Shown here in pieces: positions 54,168 to 58,454 of a stretch of DNA of 64,000 nucleotides (its first letter is position 1; each line of letters starts with the position of its first letter). The stretch spans positions 1 through 64,000 of the forward strand of contig JAIEMT010000005.1 in the NCBI GenBank assembly GCA_019751945.1, in the 5' to 3' direction. The notes below the pieces were generated by a model, which had not been told where the DNA came from, did not search any database, and saw nothing but the letters and a program-made list of their open reading frames with translations. The stretch is from a bacterium. GTDB taxonomy: Bacteria; Bdellovibrionota; UBA1018. The position numbers and the translations under genes are program-made.

Positions 54168-56051
54168 TCAGTTTAAAAGCAAAGCTACTTCTTGCTGAAG
54201 AGCTTCGGCAGTAGCGGTAGCCGGTTTCAATGAACCGATTCTCAGTTCAATTTTTCGCCACTTCGGATGAGGCATGCGGCCCAAGGCCCGGCCCCCGAAG
54301 CGGCTGAAAATACTGCCCCAAAGTCCGATGAGGGCCATCGGGATTACTGGCACTGGAGATCTTTCTAGAATTCTTTCGACTCCCTTTTTAAAGGGACCCA
54401 TTTTTCCATCGGCACTCAAGCGCCCTTCCGGAAAAATACAGACCAGGTGCCCCGCCTTTAATTCCTGCTCAATCATTTCAAAAGACCGCTGCAAAATCTG
54501 TGGATCTTCTTTCGCTGTAGCAATCGGAATGACTTTGGCTCTCTGAATAAAGCGACGAACTAAGAAGTTCTTTTGAAAGCTGTAGTCCATCACATAACGA
54601 ATGGGGCGCTTGATTCCTGCACTGATAATGAGCCAATCAATGAAGCTGACGTGATTACAAATCAAAACAGCCGCGCCCGTTTTTGGAATTTGGTGAGCGC
54701 CCGTCACTTTCAAGCGGTACATACAGTGAGCCAGCATCCAAGCAATGAATCGAAAGAGAAACTCCGGGATGACCGTGTAAATATAGATAGCCACAATTGC
54801 GTTCAAGATGCCCAAGATTCCGAAGAGGGTCGGAATAGAAACGGATTGCTTCAAAAGATAGGCAATCATTCCCGAACCGATCACCATGTAGAGCGCATTT
54901 AAAATATTATTAGCGGCGATGACGCGAGATTGATGGCTCTTCTCGGATCGTTCCTGAATCAAGGTATAGAGGGGAACATTGTAAAACCCGCTCATCACCG
55001 AAAGCACGCTCAGATCAAAAATCACACGCAGACTTTTTCCATGAACAAAGAGTTCGCTGGCAGGAACAGGTGCGCCGTCTCCCTTGAGGCTGAAAGCCCC
55101 GACCCACCAAAGGTCGAGAAGACAGAGCGTCATCCCAATAGAACCCAGGGGAACCAAGCCCAACTCCAAGCGATCTTTCGAAAGCTTTCCACAGAGCACG
55201 GACCCCACGCCAATCCCAATTGAAAAGCAGGTGAGAAAAAGAGTAACGCCCGACTCCGTGGTTCCAATCACGTCCTTACAGTAAATCGGAAGGATCGAAA
55301 GAATTCCGGCTCCCAAAAGCCAGAACCACGAAATACCCATCACCGAAAGGTAGACGCCTCGGTCTTTCTTCAAAAATCGAATGATTGAAAGAGTGGGCCG
55401 AATGGGATTGAGATCAATTTTCAGTTTCGGGTCTACCGGTGGAGCTGCCGGAATGGACCGAGATGCTAGATATCCCAGACCCGCACAGAGCAGGAGACCA
55501 ATGCTCGCCTTCCACTCCCCCGGGCCCCCTCTTTCCGCAGCGAAAACTCCACCCAAGAGTGAGCCCGTTAAAATGGCTAAGAAGGTGCCCATCTCAATCA
55601 ACGCATTTCCGCCGACCAATTCAGAATCGGAAAGATGAGTGGGCAAAAGGCTGTACTTAATGGGACCGAAAAATGTGGAGTGCAGACCCATTCCAAAAAG
55701 CACGAGCATCAACGCATTAAAGTCATGACGAATAAATCCGTAGGCCGCGACCACCATGAGCCCGATTTCGACTTGTTTAATGATGCGAACGATCCGCGTT
55801 TTTTCAAATCGATCCGCAATCTGTCCTGCTGTGGCAGAAAATAGAAAATAAGGGAGAACAAAAATTCCACTCGCGAGCGGAACCAGCTGTTCTGCCGGAA
55901 TTCCCATCCACGCCACGCCACTGTAGGCGATGAGAATGACCAGGGTGTTTTTTAAAAGGTTGTCATTAAACGCCCCAAAGAACTGAGTGATGAAGAGCGG
56001 AGCAAACCGACGTGTTCGAAAGAGCTGGGACGATCCAGAAGCGTGCGACAT
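54168..56051 (-). CDS. LplT-like MFS transporter fused to a lysophospholipid acyltransferase
   Basis: The 627-residue protein has about twelve transmembrane helices starting FITQFFGAFNDNLLKNTLVIL, an LplT-like lysophospholipid flippase pattern, then a PlsC-type domain with the CNHVSFIDWLIIS (HxxxxD) and FPEGRLSADG motifs. It lacks the acyl-ACP synthetase domain of the longer LplT-Aas fusions. It probably imports and reacylates lysophospholipids. The ATG at 56051 has GAGG five bases upstream, and an upstream TTG is less likely. Its promoter region shares the TGTCTAA boxes with the divergent peptide gene. Confidence 0.9.
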   Translation of the reverse strand: MSHASGSSQLFRTRRFAPLFITQFFGAFNDNLLKNTLVILIAYSGVAWMGIPAEQLVPLASGIFVLPYFLFSATAGQIADRFEKTRIVRIIKQVEIGLMVVAAYGFIRHDFNALMLVLFGMGLHSTFFGPIKYSLLPTHLSDSELVGGNALIEMGTFLAILTGSLLGGVFAAERGGPGEWKASIGLLLCAGLGYLASRSIPAAPPVDPKLKIDLNPIRPTLSIIRFLKKDRGVYLSVMGISWFWLLGAGILSILPIYCKDVIGTTESGVTLFLTCFSIGIGVGSVLCGKLSKDRLELGLVPLGSIGMTLCLLDLWWVGAFSLKGDGAPVPASELFVHGKSLRVIFDLSVLSVMSGFYNVPLYTLIQERSEKSHQSRVIAANNILNALYMVIGSGMIAYLLKQSVSIPTLFGILGILNAIVAIYIYTVIPEFLFRFIAWMLAHCMYRLKVTGAHQIPKTGAAVLICNHVSFIDWLIISAGIKRPIRYVMDYSFQKNFLVRRFIQRAKVIPIATAKEDPQILQRSFEMIEQELKAGHLVCIFPEGRLSADGKMGPFKKGVERILERSPVPVIPMALIGLWGSIFSRFGGRALGRMPHPKWRKIELRIGSLKPATATAEALQQEVALLLN

Positions 56052-56082
56052 GGCCGCCTCTATAGCCTCGAAATCAGCCAAA

Positions 56083-56199
56083 GTCTAATGATGTCTAAGC
56101 GTTAGACACCCCCTGTTACGCCTCTAACACCTCCGTTTTGGCGCTACTGGAGGCCTTAGACAGAGCCTCTTTTTTTATGTACTGAAAATCGGTGTCTAA
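56083..56199. promoter_or_regulatory. Cluster of TGTCTAA boxes between two divergent genes
   Basis: The 7-mer TGTCTAA or its complement occurs four times: 56092-56098, 56102-56108 (inverted, forming the perfect palindrome TGTCTAAGCGTTAGACA), 56156-56162 (inverted) and 56193-56199. A near copy, GTCTAA, is at 56083-56088. About 0.01 would be expected by chance in this length. It looks like a binding site for a dimeric regulator, at a distance suited to enhancers of a sigma-54 promoter. Confidence 0.65.
56150..56176 (+). terminator. Short terminator-like hairpin with T7 tail
   Basis: GAGGC (56150-56154) pairs with GCCTC (56165-56169) and is followed by seven T residues. It is a compact intrinsic terminator by shape, but no gene on this strand ends just upstream. 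It could end a short RNA starting nearby, or guard the peptide promoter from read-through. Confidence 0.4.
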
Positions 56200-56249
56200 A
56201 GTTTTGTCACTCAGAAAGGAGCCCTCTCGACGACGGCTCGGGCCGGGGC

Positions 56250-56266
56250 TGGCACGGATCGAGCAA
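56250..56266 (+). promoter_or_regulatory. Candidate sigma-54 promoter of the mini-peptide gene
   Basis: TGGCACG (56250-56256) gives a full -24 element. GG (56251-56252) and GC (56263-56264) are separated by exactly ten bases, the sigma-54 hallmark. The -12 element reads GAGCA rather than TTGCA. A start about 12 bases after the GC (near 56276) leaves room for GGGAG at 56281-56285 before the ATG. Confidence 0.5.
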
Positions 56267-56294
56267 TAGAGAGATGCATCGGGAGATTATGAAT

Positions 56295-56417
56295 ATGAAA
56301 AAAGCAATCGTGTTAGTCCTTTTCGGTATCGCTCTTTTGGCTGGTTCTTTCGTTGTTTCGACGACTTCGAATAGCAAAGCCTCTGCAGCTTACGCTTGCA
56401 GCACGAATCCTTGCTAA
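56295..56417 (+). CDS. Small secreted peptide with two cysteines
   Basis: The 40-residue frame (42 from the in-frame ATG at 56289) begins with two Lys, a hydrophobic core and a Ser/Thr/Ala-rich stretch ending KASAA. Cleavage after an ASA-type site would leave a mature peptide such as AYACSTNPC. GGGAG at 56281-56285 is nine bases before 56295 and three before 56289, so the later ATG is favoured. The two Cys could form a disulfide ring. It resembles precursors of signalling peptides or small bacteriocins in length, but matches none I know. It has a sigma-54-like promoter and repeated upstream boxes, and converges with the membrane cyclase gene six bases away. Confidence 0.6.
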   Translation: MKKAIVLVLFGIALLAGSFVVSTTSNSKASAAYACSTNPC

Positions 56418-56422
56418 GCTAG

Positions 56423-58454
56423 CTAAGCGGATCTCTGAACCGAGCTTGCATCTGGAATCAGATGCAGAACGGAAATGATCCTGGGTTTCTGATCACTGTC
56501 CGTGAGGCGGTGGTGGCGTAACAGCAATCGCTCCGAGAATCCCGGATCTAATTTTTCCGCCGCGTCAAAGTCCGAGTCCTCTAAAACAATCAGCGTCTTT
56601 CCCTTGTTCTCTGGAATTTCATATTCGAGATCGAGCAATCGACTTGCATTGACCAAAACATTCCCTTCAAAGCTGGGAACTTTAAACGGTCCGGAGTTTT
56701 TCCAAACTGGGAAAAGATCGCCGCTGACAATCGCCCCTCGAAAACAAACTCTTCGCCGGATCTAAACCCAGCATTTCAAAAACCTGCGAAAGCCCCGCCT
56801 GGGAGCTCGACATTTTCTGAGCAGCCCATACGGCAGACAAGAGCGGGTTCTTTTGAGACTCGGAATCAAAGAACGCGATGAGAGAATCCCCCTCTTCCTT
56901 GATGATTTCGCCTCCAAATTCAAACACGACTTGAGCCATCATCGAAAACCAAACGGTCGAGAGCTTTCCGTATTCTTGAGCCCCACTTCGGGCTCCGGCT
57001 TCCTTCTCAAGAACGGTCGATTCTTTGAGGTCGATTTTCAACATCACGCCCGGAACACGGGTCGGGAGAATGGGGCGCTTGTGATACTTCGACAGGTGGG
57101 AAACTCGCACTGCCTTTTCCGTTTCGCTGTATTCCAGTACAACCACTCCACCCAAGAGTAAAACCAAGGCAAGAGGAATGAAACGCGAGGCCACTTCGAA
57201 TTGATTGGGTGAAGCGAGGCCGCTAGCACGAAGATAGGTAATCGTACCCAATACGGCCAGAGTCATTCCAAAAAACAGCAGACGATTCCGACGAACTGGA
57301 CGGAAGTGATTCCCGTGGTGGAGTTTGAGATAAGCTGCCTGCAGCAAGCAGATGACAGAGGCACTCCAATAGCAGATGGGAACGAAAAACATTCCCAGAC
57401 TGGCAGAGAAGAACATTTTTGAAGAAGCATCTGGAAACGGCATCGCCAAAACTGCAAGAGGCATGAACAAGAACATCGGCAAGGCGTATTGGAAAAACGC
57501 CCGAGACGTTCTGGCAAAAGAGAGCCCCAAGAACAGCGCAAAGACACCGTCGTAAATCCTGAGAACCAGATCGAGTGAATAAGTGACGTTCGGTTCCAGC
57601 GCCCGGAAAACGAAATCAATCTGCCGCGCTTGAAACCAGGCCTGCACCAAAACAAAACAGGCCATGTAAAAGTATTCCTGCTTCCGTTTGGCGGAAATCC
57701 AGAAAAAGAAAAAGAGTAGAGCTAAAACCAGTTGAACCAAAGCAAATGCGAAGGGTCGCACTTCTCCGTGAAAAATCGTAACGCCGAGGAGCCCCGTCAC
57801 TTCCCTCTGTCCCGAAAAACCCTCTCCCCCAAAGGCGGCATTGAAATAATCGGGAACGAGATTGCCGACATCATGCTCAATGCGCACCGCGATCTGGAGA
57901 TTTTCTTGGTGTGAGAATTCCGCCGGAGAAATTCTCAAGATGATGGGCATGAGATTGCTGGAGTAGTTTCCCTTCTCGGCAGGGTGACCGTTAATCCAAA
58001 TCTGATAGGTGCCACTCACGAATCCTAAGATGAAAGAAGTTTTCTGCTGATCGATCGCTGCCTGGACGGTGGCGTGATCGATCGTGGTTCCTACCCAAAA
58101 AACTTTTCCTTGAAGCGCTCGAACTTTTTCTAAGTGAGCGGCGTCCCCTCGGTGAAACGAACTCCCCCAAAGGTCTTTGCGAGATGGGAGCTCCAGCCCC
58201 TTCTGATCGCCGTAGAAAACTTTCCAGCTCTGACGCGCTACAGGGAACGCGGGTTTTCCTTCCACCCAGTTTCGAATCTGTAGGTCGATGAAGAAGACAG
58301 AAAACGCAAAGAACCCGAGACAGGCCACGCCAAAGAGGGCGTACTTGCTTCGAACAGACCAGCCCCCCTCTAAGCGAGAGGTCTCTTCCGGGCTTCGCGC
58401 CAGCCAGTTGCTTGCCGACAAAATCGCCTGCTTCAGAGCATAAGTTCGTGGCAT
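56423..58454 (-). pseudogene. Membrane-bound class III nucleotide cyclase, frameshifted
   Basis: The first frame (from 58454) gives residues 1-590: a membrane anchor (38-57), an extracytoplasmic domain (about 60-235) that may be DISM-like, several helices (about 235-440), and a class III cyclase domain with the metal-binding pair in KIDLKEST and KEEGDSLIAFF. It then runs off-frame at a T4 run (minus strand; A4 at 56741-56744 on plus) and stops at 56682. Removing one T restores RGAIVSGDLFP through VNASRLLDLE and on to a stop at 56423, about 676 residues in total. The Asn/Arg transition-state pair lies only after the shift. It is a pseudogene, a sequencing error or a +1 programmed frameshift. 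Confidence 0.85.

Follow-up and report, generated by a model that had tools for sequence, protein, structure and literature searches.

A putative two-gene peptide-signalling cassette in Gram-negative bacteria: a predicted exported hexapeptide with a sigma-54-type promoter and a convergent gene for a predicted membrane receptor of class III cyclase fold

Peptide pheromones that are genetically encoded and act through cognate membrane receptors are characteristic of Gram-positive bacteria, and there is hardly any precedent for them in Gram-negative ones. The Agr/AIP and Fsr/GBAP systems, both Gram-positive, use a peptide closed by a thiolactone or lactone ring, an AgrB-like processing enzyme and a receptor that is a histidine kinase. 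The RRNPP systems are minimal two-gene modules of a propeptide and its receptor (PMC10075063), the receptor being intracellular. Among membrane sensors, the 7TMR-DISM receptors combine a periplasmic galactose-binding-like domain and membrane helices with an exchangeable cytoplasmic output (PMC6107284), and the class III membrane adenylyl cyclases, such as Rv1625c of M. tuberculosis, have a catalytic fold with two metal-binding aspartates. Sigma-54 promoters with enhancer sites carry a GG-N10-GC element and have a binding site for an activator at some distance.

The locus described here lies in a window of 64 kb, by which is meant the whole stretch of DNA that was analysed, and it shares features with each of these systems. 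As in Agr/AIP and Fsr/GBAP, a short and probably ring-shaped secreted peptide with a variable core is encoded beside its own polytopic receptor, but here the ring is inferred to be a disulfide, the output is cyclase-like, the host is Gram-negative and the promoter is of the sigma-54 type; no AgrB-like processing enzyme was found beside the peptide genes examined, a search that covered these loci only. The two-gene economy is that of RRNPP modules, but the predicted receptor is a membrane protein and the two genes are convergent. This receptor resembles 7TMR-DISM proteins in its predicted periplasmic domain, its membrane helices and its exchangeable output (a cyclase domain, or a histidine kinase in locus L143), but it is paired with a dedicated peptide gene and has no match to the Pfam 7TMR-DISM models, so it is said here to work like a 7TMR-DISM receptor and is not filed as a member. 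It shares the catalytic fold and both metal-binding aspartates with Rv1625c-type cyclases, and differs from them in its added periplasmic jelly roll, its peptide partner and a transition-state asparagine that is not conserved. The promoter has the usual sigma-54 form and activator site, with the difference that a -12 element reading GCAAT is characteristic of the peptide genes and that the activator is unidentified.

By its sequence and predicted folds this looks like an undescribed system of peptide signal and receptor in Gram-negative bacteria, its function being inferred. No report of it was found in the open-access literature that was searched, which, given that scope, is only weak evidence of absence. 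The reading that we favour, by a modest margin over its competitors taken together, is that the locus is one copy of a two-gene cassette in which a sigma-54-controlled, Sec-exported peptide is paired with its own 7TM-type receptor cyclase. The features are collected in Table 1.

Table 1. Features of the peptide locus, in coordinates of the window.
Feature	Coordinates	Strand	Basis or remark
LplT-PlsC-like phospholipid transporter/acyltransferase fusion	54168..56081	-	divergent neighbour of the peptide gene
Palindromic activator site (upstream activating sequence), TGTCTAA-GCG-TTAGACA	56092..56108	.	palindrome near sigma-54 promoters order-wide
TGTCTAA half-site	56156..56162	-	boxes also present before other family members
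TGTCTAA half-site, GTGTCTAAAGT context	56193..56199	+	GTGTCTAAAAT in the own-genome paralog, GTGTCTAAAGT in G005
Sigma-54 promoter, TGGCACGGATCGAGCAATA	56250..56268	+	GG at 56251-56252, GC at 56263-56264, expected RNA start ~56276
Ribosome-binding site, GGGAG	56281..56285	+	
Peptide precursor gene, 40 codons, MKKAIVLVLFGIALLAGSFVVSTTSNSKASAAYACSTNPC + stop	56295..56417	+	nine family loci, 6 genomes
Predicted Sec signal sequence, residues 1-34, ending A-x-A	56295..56396	+	cleavage inferred from sequence alone
Predicted mature hexapeptide CSTNPC, C-x4-C, probably disulfide-closed	56397..56414	+	invariant spacing, variable interior; inference
Convergent receptor gene, one frameshift	56423..58454	-	family alignments, AlphaFold, Foldseek

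The 40-codon frame opens with a Lys-Lys signal sequence and ends in A-Y-A-C-S-T-N-P-C. An alternative version of 47 codons starts at 56274, and since this is at or before the RNA start expected near 56276, the shorter version is preferred. A cut by signal peptidase I after A-x-A would leave the hexapeptide CSTNPC, an inference from sequence alone for which no predictor was run, and closure of this hexapeptide by a disulfide is likely but likewise inferred. A profile search over 369 genomes of the phylum, inferred from named homologues to be Bdellovibrionota, recovers the family as nine peptides in six genomes of a single order, two of the genes being in the window's genome and two in genome G021; at 6 of 369 genomes, the family is small. 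Its members are found at E-values of 6.5e-14 or below, and the next matches appear only at 9e-4 and span mostly the signal sequence alone; these resemble false matches produced by hydrophobic stretches, and not every one of them was read.

All nine peptides share the end A-x-A-C-x4-C and a common design, in which a signal sequence is followed by A-x-A and then by C-x4-C placed at the stop or one residue before it. M1, A32, A34, C35 and C40 are invariant in the alignment; A-x-A stands directly before the first cysteine in nine of nine, with one extra glycine intervening in the own-genome paralog. The cysteines and the alanines of the cleavage site are thus fixed while the residues between the cysteines vary, the predicted mature cores being CSTNPC in the window, (G)CESGSC in the second copy of the same genome, and CATERC-N, CDREPC, CEGDSC, CGSSDC, CAGYGC, CSCQPC and CDQEPC elsewhere. 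The initial annotation, which described the 40-residue frame, was right about the frame and its GGGAG site but had the mature end as AYACSTNPC after an ASA site, for which CSTNPC after A-x-A is the better reading. It had also allowed that so short a peptide might arise by chance, and had proposed a search for the frame and promoter in related genomes; that check was run and passed, the frame being conserved at nine homologous loci and the promoter at eight of them, and the reading as a chance frame is thereby ruled out.

Several candidates were rejected as family members. Weak matches in G002:C12, G033, G042 and G020 are spurious; those at L003, L006-L010 and L020 are longer secreted proteins with no relation to the family, or overlapping frames, in which hydrophobic stretches caused the match; and a PHROGs match (E=0.003) covers the signal sequence only. 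A separate observation concerns genome G040, which has a second peptide gene in tandem with the first (L044:6883-7009, G040:C89); its upstream region is near-identical, but its -24 element is degraded and the peptide ends, without cysteines, in VVHA-DDEGGPR.

The evidence for sigma-54 control rests on sequence conservation. GG-N10-GC is present at -24/-12, and the fuller pattern TGGC-N9-GCAAT lies upstream of eight of the nine peptide genes, 39-93 bp before the ATG, the sole exception being a G005 copy beside a decayed receptor gene. This pattern occurs once in the 64-kb window, at the 56250 promoter, and the exact form TGGCAYN7GCAATA has only two sites in the 3.23 Mb genome, each before a peptide gene, with no sites for the reversed-pattern controls. 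A sigma-70-like promoter was looked for upstream of the peptide gene and none was found, and rpoN is present in the genome (PF04552 match at G000:C5:110538, E=4e-64). The start of transcription and its dependence on RpoN are inferred, as there are no RNA data.

Four exact TGTCTAA boxes, at 56092, 56102 (minus strand), 56156 (minus strand) and 56193, precede this promoter. The window as a whole contains eight such boxes where four are expected, and half of the eight fall in the region upstream of the peptide gene. Upstream of the nine peptide genes together there are nine exact boxes against an expectation of 0.39, and when the window is left out five remain against 0.38, a count reached in none of 300 shuffles. 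When no more than one mismatch is allowed, the palindrome TGTCTAA-N3-TTAGACA is over-represented throughout the order (14 sites in the window's own genome, none for the control), and a strong sigma-54 promoter lies 40-140 bp from it at 16 of 20 loci, compared with 4 of 115 control stretches (p=2.7e-10). Because the palindrome is enriched beside sigma-54 promoters order-wide, it is very likely that an unidentified sigma-54 activator binds at the boxes and controls a large regulon, of which the peptide gene is a member. Many of the genes behind the palindrome loci (L171-L190) encode secreted proteins or lipoproteins. Pattern searches with the palindrome halves inverted and with TGTCTAANNTNNTG were uninformative.

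The proposal that a sigma-54 promoter and repeated boxes regulate the peptide gene, made when the locus was first annotated, is therefore supported: promoter and four boxes are present as described, the promoter is conserved at eight of nine loci, and the other family members show an excess of boxes in their upstream regions. The -12 element that was then called imperfect is the family's own conserved form, GCAAT. The “perfect 17-bp palindrome” holds only in part, in that TGTCTAAGCGTTAGACA has perfect 7-bp arms around a 3-bp centre, GCG, that is not self-complementary. Two further features of the region were observed. Between palindrome and promoter, at 56150-56176, GAGGC-cttagacaga-GCCTC followed by seven T forms a terminator-like hairpin with one TTAGACA box in its loop, and both peptide genes of the window's genome share CACCCCCTGTTAC-CC further upstream, beyond the boxes (window 56108-56140; L073:4388-4420).

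At seven of the nine loci the stop codon of the peptide gene is within 30 bp of that of a convergent intact gene for a membrane protein; these are the window, the own-genome paralog, one locus each in G001, G002 and G005, and both loci of G021, and some of the paired genes touch or overlap by a few bases at their 3' ends. At the eighth locus, that of the second peptide of G005, the facing receptor gene is reduced to a decayed remnant, and the peptide promoter has also lost the GC (GC to GA), which fits a unit that lives and dies together. The ninth peptide, in G040, is 1.2 kb from the nearest cyclase-like membrane protein (943 residues, with the same cyclase signature as judged by eye), and the cysteine-free second peptide gene lies between. 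Distances among peptides and among receptors are correlated, though modestly (Mantel r=0.45, p=0.03, 7 pairs). The convergent arrangement, the joint decay and this weak co-variation support a pairing of peptide and receptor, for which there are no binding data.

The receptor family is wider than the peptide family. Its profile has more than 20 further matches, including nine in G042, eight in G044 and others in named records (two groundwater MAGs and Bdellovibrionales bacterium GWA2_49_15). No adjacent C-x4-C peptide gene was recognised at the unpaired receptor loci examined, a scan of receptor loci for short hydrophobic frames ending in C-x4-C gave none beyond the known peptides, and a search for related loci with a receptor alignment returned only receptors without peptides. 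Many of these receptors, having no recognised adjacent peptide, are so taken to sense something else, and it is likely, by inference, that the peptide is an add-on to an older sensor family, for which the galactose-binding fold points to sugars as an ancestral ligand.

Some further observations on these loci may be recorded in their own right. G042 and G044 have an expanded sensor family, mostly without adjacent peptide genes. In G021 a secreted protein of 306 residues ending in CEGEGCS (L154:176-1096, G021:C10) is convergent with a receptor paralog and might be a large precursor or presenter of a similar C-x4-C end. In G042 a secreted protein of 262 residues with CNPDPC near its mature N-terminus (L139:3603-4391, G042:C13) is convergent with an unpaired receptor. 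The periplasmic loop of one receptor (L072:4738-6735, G021:C37) contains CFGYGC where its own peptide ends in CAGYGC, which may be mimicry or chance.

The peptide-paired receptors are membrane proteins of 650-725 residues with a predicted layout of an N-terminal membrane helix, a periplasmic galactose-binding-like domain, a multi-helix membrane region and a class III cyclase domain. The receptor gene of the window is interrupted by a frameshift at about 56735-56765, beside short homopolymer runs, which divides it into a frame at 58454-56682 and a second ending at 56423, and this may be an error of assembly or a loss of recent date. The receptor has no match above cut-off in Pfam or NCBIfam, and a sequence search of the PDB gave nothing useful, so that its description depends on structure prediction. 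An AlphaFold model was made on L165, a complete homologue that is 37% identical to the window protein and encodes the same protein as L147 of G042; its mean pLDDT is 80, and the input alignments were shallow (9 sequences). In Foldseek the C-terminus of this model matches class III adenylyl cyclases, with CyaC 1wc1 at E=2e-9 and TM 0.79, and also Rv1625c and CyaB of P. aeruginosa. The periplasmic domain of the window receptor itself was modelled with pLDDT 86 and pTM 0.84, as a GH2-type galactose-binding jelly roll (Foldseek E=1.5e-5). Membrane helices by hydropathy number 1+7 in the G005 receptor and fewer in others, and in the L165 model they occupy residues 220-455. In G040 a histidine kinase (L143) carries the same sensor half, an argument for a sensory role of the N-terminal half.

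Both metal-binding aspartates are invariant in the seven aligned peptide-paired receptors. In the six receptor sequences that reach the region, the transition-state arginine is kept and the asparagine is replaced; the claim made here is therefore one of a class III fold and not of an active class III cyclase. For the same reason cyclase activity is uncertain, and activity and product alike are inferred.

In the proposed mechanism, the unidentified enhancer-binding protein would act at the TGTCTAA/TTAGACA sites to activate sigma-54 transcription of the 40-codon precursor, which would be exported by Sec and cleaved by signal peptidase I after A-x-A to give the C-x4-C hexapeptide (CSTNPC). The oxidising periplasm would close this hexapeptide by a disulfide, and the product, of about 0.6 kDa, could pass out of the cell by way of porins or remain and act periplasmically. 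It would bind the periplasmic jelly roll or the membrane part of the receptor, on the producing cell or on a neighbour, and the bound receptor would shift the activity of the class III cyclase domain on its cytoplasmic side and so alter a cyclic nucleotide. Conservation is shown for the gene, the C-terminal motif, the sigma-54 promoter with its boxes and the convergent pairing, and the receptor folds are predicted. Export, cleavage, the disulfide, binding of ligand to receptor, cyclase activity and its product are inferred, in the absence of binding, processing or activity data.

The main rival to this reading, which we consider unlikely, is that the 40-residue product is an uncleaved membrane microprotein that binds the neighbouring receptor within the membrane and tunes the cyclase of the same cell. 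The long hydrophobic segment favours it, as do the roughly ten residues that in some members separate this segment from A-x-A, and strict genetic pairing suits an accessory subunit as well as it does a ligand. However, an invariant A-x-A before an exactly spaced terminal C-x4-C is hard to explain in a plain anchor, and the part that varies is, as in ligands, the stretch between the cysteines. The initial annotation had left open an extracellular signal or a toxin, and had no knowledge of the receptor-like cyclase partner. A bacteriocin- or toxin-like peptide, with the adjacent membrane protein as its immunity or response factor, would agree with a short secreted cysteine peptide, a regulated promoter and a variable core, but the partner is a receptor-cyclase and neither an immunity protein nor an exporter, a peptidase-exporter is not found beside the peptide gene, six residues of C-x4-C are very few for a bacteriocin, and related receptors exist without peptides. 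This reading is very unlikely; with a receptor-like membrane cyclase as the conserved partner, a signal is favoured over a toxin, and the function remains inferred.

There is as little to recommend the view that the product is a small lipoprotein lipidated on its first cysteine, or an envelope redox switch formed by the cysteine pair, with the receptor reporting the state of the envelope. The cysteine directly after A-x-A, the conserved cysteine pair and a weak, sub-cut-off NCBIfam similarity to entericidin A (E=0.043) are in its favour, but the lipobox L-[AS]-[GA]-C is absent, position -3 being Ala and -2 being Tyr, His, Gln, Lys, Val or Met, and the own-genome paralog has Gly before Cys. A last alternative assigns the TGTCTAA boxes to the divergent LplT-PlsC gene and treats the peptide frame as incidental. 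The boxes do sit between the two genes, but they are also found in front of peptide genes that have different neighbours, and nine loci conserve the frame, so that as a full account this reading is refuted and all but excluded, while regulation of both genes is possible. The LplT-PlsC fusion is probably outside the peptide system, because it is absent beside the other peptide genes examined; the own-genome paralog has a different neighbour, and at the one LplT-PlsC locus of a relative that was read the surroundings are unrelated.

Under the favoured reading, that of a signal peptide with its own receptor, a bolder interpretation is available, for which the arguments on either side seem to us evenly balanced. 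It holds that this would be, in Gram-negative bacteria, a peptide-hormone system of the most compact sort, in which a Sec-exported, disulfide-closed hexapeptide made without a dedicated processing enzyme addresses one protein chain acting as 7TM-type receptor and adenylyl cyclase at once, and several signal-receptor pairs of differing specificity coexist in one genome. The favoured reading itself lends itself to a direct test with a synthetic hexapeptide, since a name can be put to its peptide, promoter, activator site and receptor alike. Should that reading be right, a secreted peptide would be linked to a cyclic-nucleotide receptor contained in one protein, and bacteria would follow the hormone scheme in which a peptide acts through a receptor on cAMP; a class of receptors with few known ligands would gain one; and a sigma-54 regulon of envelope and secreted proteins, extending across the order, would come to light.
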